NCBI GenBank assembly: GCA_026004675.1
Contig: BPJP01000001.1
Span: 186,001-250,000 of the forward strand
DNA length: 64,000 nucleotides
DNA from: Gemmatales bacterium
GTDB taxonomy: Bacteria > Planctomycetota > Planctomycetia > Gemmatales > Gemmataceae
Reading direction: 5' to 3'
Below are positions 347-6,501 of the stretch, piece after piece. A model generated the notes under the pieces. It made no database searches. It saw only the letters and a program-made list of their open reading frames with translations, and was not told the DNA's origin. How positions within the stretch are numbered: the first letter of the stretch is position 1; the number at the start of each line of letters is the position of its first letter. The position numbers and the translations under genes were made by a program.

Positions 347-1555
347 CTATTTCCGGGCTTGGGTTTGCAGGTAACGTACCATCGCCTTGCCCAATTGCTC
401 GCCGACAGTGCGGTAATTTTCCATCGTGCTGTTCTTGGTATTCCAGGAAGTTTCCAGGCACGCGGCCACAGCACCGGTGTGCGCCACAACCCAATTGCAG
501 CTGATCTTGCGCCAGTTGCGATCGTAATTCGCCCCGGTCTCCTTGGAGACGAATGAGGCCAGCTTCAGCGGACCGGTGATTTCTTTTCGAGCAGACTGCA
601 GGAAGAGGTCGAGGTTCTGCCGTTGTTCGACGGACATCAATTCGGTAGCCGGGACGAAAAAGAAGGGGCTGCGATCGTTCGCCGCTGGATTGTGCAAATC
701 GACAAACAGATCAAACGATCCGCCGTCCTTCAGTTTTTTTATTCGACTGATGGCGGCAGCCACCTCCGGCCAAACAGGATTGTCGGACCAGTCCCTGTTG
801 TGATCGTGAGGTTTTTGGTTTTTTCCGCCGGCGCCGCGCTCGACATTATCGACGTCCATGATCGGCACGACGATGACGGTGGCATGGTCGCGTAGCCATA
901 CAGCATCAGGATCCTTCGACACGAGCCAGTCGATGAAGCCCTGGCAAACCCAACTCGAGCCGGCTTCCCATGCGTGTTGGCGAGCGTTCACCCAGATGCC
1001 AAACGGTTTTTTCTCCGGTGACATGGGGGCAACCACAAGTGCCGGCACGGCATGGCCGTCTTTGCTTCGGCATAAGGTAAATGCCCTGGCTTGAACGCAT
1101 CGTTTGCTTGCCTCTTTGACGGCGGCGTTCGCATGGCTTAGCGTGTACGGCGGCCCCCACGCGAACCACGCCTCAGACGCATCGACCTTTTGTTGATAGA
1201 TGATCCGTTTCCCAGCACGTTTTCCTGGACTTGTTTGACTCCAGGTCTTGTTGTCAGTGCTGAAGACCGCCTGATCGGGAGTCGCCCAGACACCTTCGCC
1301 GACGTCCAGGGTCAAAATTTCGCCGGGACGAATACCTTCCACTTTGAAATACCACCAGCAGACAAAACCACGGTTCAGGTGGGGAAAAGGTGAAATTCGC
1401 AGACGGCGCTTCTGCTGGTCGATGTGCTCGACGCGAACCGACCCCCCAGCGAAGTCGGCGCGAATCTTCAGTTCGGAACCGTAGAGCGGACCAGCGACCA
1501 GTCCGCCGAAGAAAAAGACGCAAACGCTCGCGATACGCATTGGAAAAGCCGGCAT
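347..1555 (-). CDS. secreted M14-family zinc carboxypeptidase-like protein
   Basis: About 402 residues. I chose the ATG at 1555 because AGGA lies a few bases upstream; a longer frame to 1660 adds an unlikely leader. A hydrophobic segment (about residues 6-25) is a probable signal peptide, pointing to the periplasm. Residues 35-140 form a beta-rich domain resembling the N-terminal domain of cytosolic carboxypeptidases. The catalytic domain follows. H194 and E197 (NARQHAWE, replacing the usual HPGE) and H288 (DLHNP) are the expected zinc ligands, N253-R254 (HNRDW) the substrate-carboxylate site, and E368 (CLETSW) the general base. All key residues are present, so activity is likely. Known relatives remove C-terminal residues or side-chain glutamates from proteins; the substrate here cannot be told. 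Confidence 0.75.
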   Translation of the reverse strand: MPAFPMRIASVCVFFFGGLVAGPLYGSELKIRADFAGGSVRVEHIDQQKRRLRISPFPHLNRGFVCWWYFKVEGIRPGEILTLDVGEGVWATPDQAVFSTDNKTWSQTSPGKRAGKRIIYQQKVDASEAWFAWGPPYTLSHANAAVKEASKRCVQARAFTLCRSKDGHAVPALVVAPMSPEKKPFGIWVNARQHAWEAGSSWVCQGFIDWLVSKDPDAVWLRDHATVIVVPIMDVDNVERGAGGKNQKPHDHNRDWSDNPVWPEVAAAISRIKKLKDGGSFDLFVDLHNPAANDRSPFFFVPATELMSVEQRQNLDLFLQSARKEITGPLKLASFVSKETGANYDRNWRKISCNWVVAHTGAVAACLETSWNTKNSTMENYRTVGEQLGKAMVRYLQTQARK

Positions 1556-1677
1556 GGCATGATCCTGAAAAGCAAATGGAATCATTGAGGGGTACGAACT
1601 GGACACAATGATCGCGGAGAGGAGCCATATGGGGATCCTCTCCGCAAGTGAAAAGCTCACGCGATGTCGACTGCGAG

Positions 1678-4233
1678 TTAGCCGGCTCTCTTGGATTTGT
1701 CGGCCATTTGAATTTGTTTACGGAGATATTCCAGTGCCTTGTTCAGCTGGATATCTTCGAACTTGTCGTTCGGCTTCTTCTTGGAGCCGATGATTTCGAT
1801 TTCGTGCAAATGATCTTGCAGTTCCTGCCGCTGTTTGGCGGTCAATTCGACAAGGTAGTTCTTGTCCGGAATGACCCCCCATTCATCTTCAGGTCGGCCT
1901 TTCGTGCTGGCGCGATTGAGGTTTTTGCCACTAGGCCGCCAGAAGGTCGCGGTGGTGAGCTTGAGCTGGCCACCTTCGAAATTGCGGATATTCTGCACGC
2001 TGCCTTTGCCGTAACTGCGCTCCCCGACAATGAGAGCCCGGTTGTGGTCTTGCAAACAAGCGGCGACGATTTCGCTGCCTGACGCACTGCCGCCATTGAC
2101 CAGGCACACCATCGGGAAATCGAGCAAACTGCGATCGTGCTCGCCGTTCAAAAAGCGTTCGTTGGCGCCCCGAGGGCGAATGCTCACGATGCGCCCGTCG
2201 TCGATGAACATATCAGAAATGATGACGGCGCTGGACAAGAGGCCGCCGGGATTGAAGCGGAGATCGAGAATGAAACCTTTGATCCCTCGCTTTTGCAGTT
2301 TCGCCAACACCTCGTCAAGGTCTTCCGCAGTGCGGTTGGCGAAACTGGTGATGCGCACGTAGCCGATCCGATTGGCGTGGTCGATGAGATAGTCCCAGGT
2401 GTCGTCGTCCTTGCGACGAGCGCCGAGCACGGTTTCGACCTGCACGAGGCCGCGAGTGATTTCGACCTCGAAGGGTTTTTCGACGCCTTCTCGTTTGATG
2501 AGCAAGCGGACTTGGGTTCCCTCTCGGCCGAGGATTTTCTTGACCGCATCGGACAGCGGCAATCCCTTCGTAGGTATGACCTCTGTCTGGGGGAGCTTGT
2601 TACCTTCACTATCCACGTCGCGACGGATCTCGACGATCAAATCGCCGGCTTTGATCCCCTTCTTGTAAGCGGGGCTGTTGTACAACGGGGTTACGACGAG
2701 CAGTTGGTCGGTGTTGAGGTCTTTGCGAATCTGGATACCGACCCCCGTGAAGCGGGCCTCGGTTTCCTGGCGGAAGCGGGCCAGGGTTGCCGGATCGATA
2801 TAGGTGGTATATGGGTCGAGGTTGGCCAGCATCCTTTGCAAGGCTACGTCGATATCTTTGTGTTCATCGAGGTCTTCGCGTTTGCCGAGATGTTGCCGCA
2901 CATCGGCCAGCAACTTGAGCAGTTCCTCCTGGCTCAGCTCTTTCACTTTCTTGAGCCGTTCCTTGAACTCCTTGGGAATGTTTTGATTCACATAACGGAA
3001 GAGCCCTTCGATGGCCCAGCCGACCATTTCGCCCTGGTTGAGTTTTTCAACATAATCGTCTCGGACCTGGTTGATCCCCTCCATGATTTTTTCAGCGAAC
3101 GTCTCGGCGTCGTCACGAGTGATCTTCATGCCGGCCAGAATCTTGTCGCGTGCTTTGAGGAAATCATCCACAGCGAGTTTGCCTTCCACGAGGGCCTGGA
3201 ATTGCTTGCGCAGTTCCTGGCGGGCTTTGAGGCGAGGCATCTGATAGAGTAGGTGTCTTCCTTCCTCGGCGACTTCTTCAGAGATCGCTTTTTTCTTGGC
3301 CAATTCTTCCAGTTTTTGCAATCGCTCGTTCACCTTGGCCGTAACGGCTGGATTGTGCGTGACGGCGAATTGCCATTGTTGGGTTCGCAACACCAGATAA
3401 CGCTGCCTCTTGTCTTCTTCCGTTTTGCCGTGCGTGCGGATCAGTTCAGGCAGATGGTCTTCAAAATATTCAATGATTTCTTCGGTGGTCACCAATCCGT
3501 CTGGTTCGTAGCCGGCTTTATCCGCCTTTCCGCGCAGAGCATCGAGCAGCACTTGAGCGAACAATCCATGCTCTTCGCCTTCCAGCGACTGCCGAGTTCC
3601 CGAATTGGCGAGTAGAACGAATCGACCCAGGTTCGTTCCTTTATCTTCATCTCCCAGGAACTCTTGATAGTACTCGGCGAGATTGATGCCGGGCGGTTTC
3701 TCCTTGCCGCTATCGAAGCCGTTGAAGTTGACATCGACAAAAACGACCACTCGCTTGCATTTCAAGGTATCGAGTTCGTGCTTGATTTCCGCAGCCGACA
3801 CGGCATCCTTATTGCGATTCTTATAGGTCGAGTCGGTCGCAAAGTAGCATCCGGTCGTTCCCAAAGGGGCCCCTTGCATGAACATGGCGATCACGACCAT
3901 GTCGTCGCTGCCCGCTTGCGCCACCCATTTGAACCCTTTGACGATGTTCTCGTGGGTCGCAGGCTGGCTGTTGCGTTTGGCGTCCTCTGTTCCCAGAAGG
4001 AGGCGGCTTTCGACTTGCGTGCCCCCCATGAATTTCGCCTGGCTTAAAACGTCATAAAGAGCCTTGGCATCCGCTTCGGCATGCGTTCGCGGTTTGATTT
4101 GCTGGTCTGCGTATTTGTCGATGCCGATTACCAGTACATAGGCCTTCTTGGCCTGATCTTCGTCCGCGCGCAGCGGCACGACCGCCAACAGTAACATGAG
4201 CACAACAGAAATTCTTGTCAGCACCGTGTTCAT
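1678..4233 (-). CDS. secreted pseudocaspase-PDZ-S41 (CTP) protease fusion
   Basis: About 851 residues from the ATG at 4233, which has AAAGGA upstream; a TTG 18 bases earlier is less likely. A signal peptide spans residues 1-23. Residues 30-290 follow the caspase-like (C14) fold: VLVIGIDKY at the first strand, an AT/H-N-I block near 93, and LLDALRGKAD with a vTxxEl block later. The SGHG histidine site reads MQGA (residues 119-122) and the DaCHSG cysteine site reads DVNFNG (167-172), so both catalytic residues are lost. A helical linker (about 300-480) leads to a PDZ domain (TGVGIQI onward) and a C-terminal processing protease domain with intact S718, D729 and K743 (SASGSE, LQD, SYGKG). The live activity should be S41 proteolysis in the periplasm, and the dead caspase fold is probably a binding or regulatory module. 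It runs alone on its strand. Confidence 0.85.
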   Translation of the reverse strand: MNTVLTRISVVLMLLLAVVPLRADEDQAKKAYVLVIGIDKYADQQIKPRTHAEADAKALYDVLSQAKFMGGTQVESRLLLGTEDAKRNSQPATHENIVKGFKWVAQAGSDDMVVIAMFMQGAPLGTTGCYFATDSTYKNRNKDAVSAAEIKHELDTLKCKRVVVFVDVNFNGFDSGKEKPPGINLAEYYQEFLGDEDKGTNLGRFVLLANSGTRQSLEGEEHGLFAQVLLDALRGKADKAGYEPDGLVTTEEIIEYFEDHLPELIRTHGKTEEDKRQRYLVLRTQQWQFAVTHNPAVTAKVNERLQKLEELAKKKAISEEVAEEGRHLLYQMPRLKARQELRKQFQALVEGKLAVDDFLKARDKILAGMKITRDDAETFAEKIMEGINQVRDDYVEKLNQGEMVGWAIEGLFRYVNQNIPKEFKERLKKVKELSQEELLKLLADVRQHLGKREDLDEHKDIDVALQRMLANLDPYTTYIDPATLARFRQETEARFTGVGIQIRKDLNTDQLLVVTPLYNSPAYKKGIKAGDLIVEIRRDVDSEGNKLPQTEVIPTKGLPLSDAVKKILGREGTQVRLLIKREGVEKPFEVEITRGLVQVETVLGARRKDDDTWDYLIDHANRIGYVRITSFANRTAEDLDEVLAKLQKRGIKGFILDLRFNPGGLLSSAVIISDMFIDDGRIVSIRPRGANERFLNGEHDRSLLDFPMVCLVNGGSASGSEIVAACLQDHNRALIVGERSYGKGSVQNIRNFEGGQLKLTTATFWRPSGKNLNRASTKGRPEDEWGVIPDKNYLVELTAKQRQELQDHLHEIEIIGSKKKPNDKFEDIQLNKALEYLRKQIQMADKSKRAG

Positions 4234-5396: not shown

Positions 5397-6110
5397 TTAT
5401 GGTAGCCAACTGTTTATGTAACGCATTGAATCTGCGATCTGTTGCGGTGTGAGACCACCGAGATAGCGCTCAACAGTACGCAGTGCCCGTGACTCAACGA
5501 GTACCTCAATGCGACCGCGCTGCGTTGCATATAGCTGCAGGTAATTCGAGTGTCCGAGCCGCGCCGAATGGCGAGCGTGGGACAACTCATGAACCGCGGT
5601 TATCAATTGTCCGGCTTTCGTCTTGCGAAGCGTGTTCGCCGGAAGTGCAATCGTTCGGCGACTGTTCACGACGCCAAACCACGGAGACCTTCCAGTCGTA
5701 AAGACCACATCATCAACGTAGTCAGCCAACCGGACCCGAGCAGCTTGGGCAGCTTCCTCAACGATTGCTTGGGCACGTGCTTGCCGAACGCCGTTGTAAA
5801 ACAACCTCTGGTTACCCCATTGCTGAACATTCAATGAACGAGGCGGTACACTGTTTGAAGCACCACCCCGCGGCCCCTGCCGCCAGCTCCTCAATCTATC
5901 TATACCAGCCCTGGCGCGTTGTGTGAAGCCGCGGCGAAGCTGGCCAGCGAGTTGACCGGTTCGCCGAAAGGCGCCGCCAAGCGACCGGCCCACATCCTCG
6001 ACGAAAATTGCCGTTGGCCGAATGCCCGATCCCGCCCCAAAAACGCCAAGACCGCCAAGCGTGACGTTGAGCGGAGGTGTTGCCTGAACTTGGACGTTGA
6101 TGACGTTTAC
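5397..6110 (-). pseudogene. 5'-truncated HExxH metallopeptidase domain, toxin-like
   Basis: The open frame runs from an in-frame stop at 6111-6113 to the TAA at 5397, about 237 codons. A GTG at 5993 could begin a 198-residue protein, but the frame stays protein-like upstream of it (VTLGGLGVFGAGSGIRPTA), so the true N-terminus has probably been lost. The C-terminal part is a zincin-like domain: HELSHARH about 55 residues before the end supplies two zinc histidines and the catalytic glutamate, and a glutamate in IEVLVESRAL is a plausible third ligand. The frame breaks within 60 bases of the 54-bp hairpin array at 6161, as if the array or its carrier replaced the 5' end. The layout (toxin end, then a small gene 15 bases on) resembles polymorphic toxin cassettes; secretion modules are missing. 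Confidence 0.55.
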
Positions 6111-6160
6111 TCAGCCTGGCCACGTTCTTCGCTTCGCTCAGAGCGTGCCACCCAAGAAAC

Positions 6161-6501
6161 ACCGTTTGTTGACGGTTCGCTTGTCGCGCTGACGCCACGA
6201 TGCTCGCTGAAACCACCGTTTGTTGACGGTTCGCTCGTCGCGCTCACGCCGCGACGCTCGCTGGAAACACCGTTTGTTGACGGTCCGCTCGTCGCGCTGA
6301 CGCCACGATGCTCGCTGAAACCACCGTTTGTTGACGGTTCGCTTGTCGCGCTGACGCCACGATGCTCGCTGAAATCACCGTTAGTTGACGGTCCCGCTCG
6401 TCGCGCTCACGCCGCAACGCTCGCTGAAATCACCGTTAGTTGACGGTCCGCTCGTCGCGCTGACACCGCGACGCTCGCTGAAACCACCGTTAGTTGACGG
6501 T
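6161..6501 (+). repeat. 54-bp tandem hairpin repeat array, 7 copies (array 1)
   Basis: Seven copies of ACCGTTTGTTGACGGT or ACCGTTAGTTGACGGT start at 6161, 6215, 6269, 6323, 6377, 6432 and 6486, a steady 54-bp period with one inserted C near 6393. Each unit can form two hairpins: ACCGT/ACGGT around a 6-base loop, and CGTCGCG/CGCGACG around a short loop in the better-kept units. The intervening sequence is nearly identical between units, so this is a tandem repeat rather than a CRISPR array. The translated frame is a repetitive VDGSLVALTPR string with no sign of being a real protein. The same repeat occurs at 19268-19446 in reverse orientation and singly at 62306-62565. Confidence 0.9.

Follow-up and report, generated by a model that had tools for sequence, protein, structure and literature searches.

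Our analysis strongly indicates that a seemingly inactivated caspase domain, joined to an intact-looking C-terminal processing peptidase (CTP) in one exported protein, is a conserved trait of a planctomycete lineage. In the window, by which we mean the whole stretch of 64,000 nucleotides analyzed from a Gemmatales bacterium, this protein of 851 amino acids is encoded by a single open frame on the minus strand (1678..4233, with its ATG at 4233), assigned through Pfam and NCBIfam and shared as a fusion by many relatives. All features of the protein given below lie on the same strand. Residues 1-23 (4165..4233) form a putative Sec-type signal peptide, judged by eye and devoid of a lipobox Cys. 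The N-termini read in relatives are likewise hydrophobic, and no lipobox was seen in any N-terminus read, whether of the window protein or of its relatives. The signal peptide is followed by a C14 caspase-fold domain without catalytic dyad (residues about 30-285; 3379..4146), supported by Pfam, an AF2 model and Foldseek, and by an all-helical linker, delimited on AF2 secondary structure, which leads from the pseudocaspase to the CTP core (residues 286-440; 2914..3378). Next come the N-terminal region of the CTP and its PDZ domain (residues 441-610; 2404..2913), recognized through weak CtpB_N-like and PDZ matches in Pfam, alignments to CtpA and CtpB and the model. The S41 protease domain (residues 611-780; 1894..2403) was identified by Pfam and by Foldseek matches to CtpA-LbcA, H. 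pylori CtpA and Prc.

The Pfam Peptidase_C14 match spans residues 32-238 and profile positions 3-196 of 233, with 38.5 bits against a cut-off of 21.4 (E 1.4e-9), while Peptidase_S41 is matched at residues 622-775 with an E of 1e-46. The PDZ domain lies below the Pfam threshold, around residues 500-540, and the region is alignable to CtpA, CtpB and D1P structures in a PDB sequence comparison. NCBIfam TIGR00225 (C-terminal processing peptidase) scores 278 bits against a cut-off of 218.6, and the solved structures closest to the window protein in sequence are those of Pseudomonas CtpA, H. pylori CtpA, D1 protease, CtpB and E. coli Prc. Judged by its S41 domain, PDZ and Ser-Lys-Gln residues, the window protein is an S41A-type CTP with predicted C-terminal proteolysis. 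The description of an exported protein with a caspase-like N-terminal domain, a PDZ and a CTP, put forward in an earlier note on this DNA, was therefore borne out by Pfam, TIGR00225, the model and Foldseek.

Structure prediction, which had been suggested as a check, returned a caspase-like fold. The AF2 model of residues 26-300, built from 53 sequences, has a mean pLDDT of 93.3, and its top Foldseek match in the PDB is the MALT1 paracaspase (E 1.7e-11). Further matches include caspase-9, insect caspase-1, bacterial GSU0716, metacaspases and the zymogen caspase-8:c-FLIPL complex, and on this modeling the fold of the N-terminal domain is that of a caspase. A model of residues 26-851 (pLDDT 88.8) connects the caspase fold to the CTP core by a segment made up entirely of helices, and its best Foldseek matches are the CtpA-LbcA, H. 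pylori CtpA and Prc-NlpI complexes. The relative placement of the domains in this full-length model is uncertain, with a pTM of 0.70.

Both caspase sites are altered. By alignment, F118-M119-Q120-G121 (3871..3882) occupies the SGHG site, with Gln120 in place of the catalytic His, and D167-V-N-F-N-G172 (3718..3735) occupies the DACHSG site, where Cys has become Asn169 and the S1 Asp167 is kept. The earlier claim that both sites are replaced thus stands with respect to the residues, but not with respect to motif position, as SGHG corresponds to FMQG and MQGA is one residue off. On the protease side, the nucleophile Ser718 (2080..2082) is invariant in all homologues covering the site. Lys743 and Gln747 of GKGSVQ (1993..2007), the general base and its partner, are invariant where covered and nearly invariant, respectively. 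S718, D729 and K743 are intact, as had been stated, and the CTP triad partner is Q747.

A census of 94 fused Gemmatales domains, left once identical sequences had been removed, revealed that the dyad is gone from every one. Position 120 holds Gln in 38, Arg in 34, Glu in nine, Asn in seven, Ser in five and Ala in one, and position 169 is occupied by Asn, His, Gln, Ala, Asp, Ser or Tyr. No His occurs within residues 117-123 and no Cys at position 169 in any of the 94 domains; two of them have a Cys one residue before the latter site, as DCNFLG. A mis-aligned dyad, the error against which the earlier note had advised a check, was therefore rejected, since no His is found up to three residues to either side of the expected position. 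Two earlier, partially overlapping sets, of 43 fused relatives from whole genomes (window protein counted) and 56 from a scan of named genomes, gave a similar picture: His at 120 is absent from all members of both sets, and Cys at 169 occurs in a single diverged relative (L046), itself without the His. Among other C14 domains of the phylum, His was found in 37 of 45 and Cys in 37 of 45. The active C14 relatives examined are partnered with an FGE-sulfatase domain, WD40 repeats or a PEGA domain, and no C14-S41 fusion with an intact His-Cys dyad was found among the genomes fetched.

The same domain order was sought in relatives and found across Gemmataceae, a sister family and, in diverged form, a third family of the class. 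In Gemmataceae, the family of the window, the fused gene appears to be near-universal: the full-length profile finds a match at E <= 1e-100 in 91 of 95 genomes, some of these matches being S41-only. All 66 genomes of good quality (at least 90% complete, at most 5% contaminated) have such a match, which by reading of the listing is S41-only in just one of them, G448. The third family contributes three genomes (L046, L047 and L048), with SC, SS and RH at the dyad positions; the Cys without His in L046 is perhaps a trace of stepwise loss. Named records with the fusion are mostly Gemmataceae, Zavarzinella formosa DSM 19928 included. Many of the genomes are metagenome bins, and a few titles (e.g., Bacteroidales, Kuenenia) probably reflect misassigned bins. 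As the contig scan of named genomes used a single peptide pattern, it could have overlooked remote fusions present in other phyla.

Phylogenetic analysis of 96 N domains separated the fused proteins from the standalone planctomycete C14 domains, the majority of which have His-Cys, across a single branch (SH-aLRT 94). Four copies interrupted by contig ends, frameshifts or stops grouped with the fused proteins. This topology, whose root is a midpoint only, fits a single fusion with the dyad lost afterwards or at the same time. The genome of the window carries a second fused copy (L002 1303-4020, plus strand), which is 48% identical and has Ala and Asn at the dyad positions, as well as standalone S41 proteins. 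Many of the genomes likewise contain standalone S41 paralogues without the extension alongside the fusion. Three S41 proteins (G018:C526, G376:C197 and G427:C32) have part of the helical linker and no pseudocaspase match.

Pairwise dN/dS values (NG86, close relatives) are about 0.02-0.06 for the dead caspase domain and about 0-0.05 for S41. For the helical linker, most pairs gave about 0.05-0.1 and one pair 0.31. Compared with the window protein, relatives are on average 42% identical in the dead domain, 38% in the linker and 60% in S41, so that the linker is the fastest-evolving folded part. In addition, the fused domains have Arg at position 49 (4087..4089) in 86 of 94 cases and at position 140 (3814..3816) in 90, whereas Leu predominates at both positions in the other C14 domains of the phylum. 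The conservation of F131 and E243 is likewise specific to the fused family. Low dN/dS, along with arginines conserved where active relatives have Leu, argues that the dead domain has a function, without indicating which.

As regards the old S1 pocket, a basic P1 residue is bound in metacaspases and MALT1 by acidic side chains, namely Asp95 and Asp211 in TbMCA2 and Asp365, Asp462 and Glu500 in MALT1 (PMC4357240). The window protein retains Asp55 (4069..4071), the NDA-motif Asp of the metacaspase S1 pocket according to a profile alignment to metacaspase-1. This residue is kept in 94 of 94 fused domains and Asp167 in 93 of 94. Both S1-pocket aspartates are also kept in prokaryotic pseudo-orthocaspases (PMC6426788), and their conservation may be structural, since it is common to active and inactive domains. 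The position equated by alignment with TbMCA2 Ser156 is Ala or Ser in other C14 domains and Phe, Ile, Val or Leu in nearly all fused ones; because it has turned bulky, the pocket may be narrowed, filled or closed. A recognition surface could thus lie away from the old peptide pocket.

The age of the pairing and the strong selection acting on it throughout the group make it likely that the pseudocaspase serves as an internal regulator or as a handle for substrates. By analogy with known CTP systems, we lean towards its being part of a periplasmic CTP in which it would act as adaptor or regulator, and the role of sensor or substrate recruiter suggested in the earlier note is plausible. The protein would be a periplasmic S41A CTP with an N-terminal extension of about 410 residues, comprising the dead caspase fold and a helical connector that would run into the CTP's own N-terminal region. 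The pseudocaspase would no longer cut; it would bind substrate proteins or a peptide signal and either present the bound partner to the attached protease or switch the protease on. One chain would then do the job of the separate adaptors of Proteobacteria, NlpI for Prc and LbcA for CtpA. LbcA docks, through a helical adaptor domain, on the helices of the N-terminal dimerisation region of CtpA; this shifts the PDZ domain and realigns the catalytic residues, and substrate is likely bound by a distinct TPR domain of LbcA (PMC11021448). NlpI brings MepS to Prc (PMC12749690). The CTP core of CtpA-LbcA and Prc-NlpI is homologous to that of the window protein. The likeness to CtpA-LbcA in docking is one of arrangement only, LbcA attaching at the N-terminal end of the CTP, where the helical connector joins here; moreover, LbcA and NlpI are separate lipoproteins without a caspase fold, whereas here the extension is covalent and includes one. 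If the proposal is true, CTP control is possible without separate lipoprotein adaptors. More tentatively, a whole planctomycete family may possess a periplasmic tail-specific protease regulated in cis by an attached dead caspase that recognizes substrates or peptide signals, a claim to which we give slightly less than even weight. No description of a cis pseudo-caspase adaptor for a CTP was found in the open-access literature searched.

Other roles for the domain should be considered. A function in localisation or scaffolding, in which the pseudocaspase would tie the protease to a partner or an envelope structure without substrate contact or regulation, is somewhat unlikely. The strong constraint and the new conserved Arg residues would suit any binding surface, an anchor may be needed as the N-termini read show no lipobox, and the classical peptide pocket seems narrowed. 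However, a helical connector that leads into the N-terminal region of the CTP would suit regulation too. The dead caspase could also act as an autoinhibitory, zymogen-like prodomain that restrains the CTP until cleavage or a signal sets it free, which we regard as distinctly improbable. Its N-terminal placement, the uncertain and possibly flexible arrangement (pTM 0.70) and the existence of CTPs with inactive resting states (PMC11021448) agree with such a role, but the connector is predicted to be helical with no evident conserved cleavage loop, and CTPs already have PDZ-based inhibition. Catalysis through an altered chemistry of the substituted residues (e.g., Gln or Arg at 120 with Asn, His or Asp at 169) would be consistent with the strong purifying selection on the N domain; it is very doubtful nonetheless, because positions 120 and 169 vary without pattern among chemically unlike residues, as those of a new active site would not. 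Finally, that the domain is a disappearing relic, as the lost dyad and its faster evolution relative to S41 (42% versus 60% identity) might suggest, is hardly credible and was rejected on the dN/dS values of about 0.02-0.06, the near-universal retention in the family and the new specific positions, which point to constraint gained and not to decay.

Regulation of a protease by a catalytically dead caspase fold is known in animals from c-FLIP-L. That protein acts in trans on a caspase, whereas in the adaptor or regulator reading preferred here an unrelated serine protease would be regulated in cis, in the bacterial periplasm. Bacterial pseudo-orthocaspases have been catalogued by the hundreds and, to our knowledge, no mechanism has been settled for them. 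The near-universal, long-conserved fusion to an assayable class of enzymes makes the function of a bacterial dead caspase directly testable.

With its p20-type fold and substituted dyad, the N domain of the window protein appears to fall among the pseudo-orthocaspases; it shares the caspase fold of active C14 members, with Q120/N169 in place of their His-Cys dyad. The pseudo-orthocaspases of Cyanobacteria and Alphaproteobacteria are alike in their p20-type caspase fold, substituted dyad and retained S1 aspartates (here D55 and D167), but their dyads are mostly YS, YN, YA, FS or QC, in contrast to Q, R, E, N or S combined with N, H, Q, A, D or S here (PMC6426788). Neither planctomycetes nor S41 or PDZ domains are mentioned in the main text of that study. 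It does report an alphaproteobacterial fusion in which a pseudo-p20 domain also shares a chain with an intact protease; there, however, the protease is trypsin-like and N-terminal, the Cys is kept (QC) and a DUF4384 lies at the C-terminus, while here a CTP/S41 with PDZ is C-terminal (PMC6426788). In Planctomycetes, low conservation of His-Cys (64%) was noted in 2012 (PMC3501461). A caspase-S41 (C14-S41) fusion in Planctomycetes or Gemmata is not described in the limited set of open-access papers searched. The novelty of design claimed in the earlier note thus holds for the C14-S41 pairing within those papers, but not for a pseudo-caspase beside an intact protease as such, given the trypsin-like case (PMC6426788).

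Concerning the surroundings of the fusion gene, an M14 zinc carboxypeptidase gene (347-1660, minus strand) starts 17 bases downstream of it on the same strand, and its product bears a cytosolic-carboxypeptidase-like N-terminal domain. This adjacency was not seen in the flanks of relatives examined, and the M14 enzyme was rejected as an operon partner. Since the neighbours are not conserved in those flanks, genomics points to no partner or substrate. The protein encoded at 5397-5993 (minus strand) is small and weakly matches a zincin-like metallopeptidase, and a 54-base tandem unit in 6.4 copies, with a higher-order period of 163, was found at 6156-6501, in surroundings poor in genes.

Apparent dyad loss was also observed outside the fused family. 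In the genome of the window, a WD40-repeat protein (L139 938-3931, plus strand) ends in a domain that resembles C14 but is degenerate (FAGGGQ / DVRQIG), and the dyad seems to have been lost there as well. Six planctomycete C14 proteins without S41 (L117, L124, L127, L131, L138 and L142), in which Tyr, Leu or Asn replaces the His and the Cys position is mostly Ser, apparently form a separate pseudo-orthocaspase group. An intact His-Cys caspase domain was found in a Phycisphaerae protein, joined to an FGE-sulfatase (formylglycine-generating enzyme-like) domain (L107 5842-7935, plus strand).
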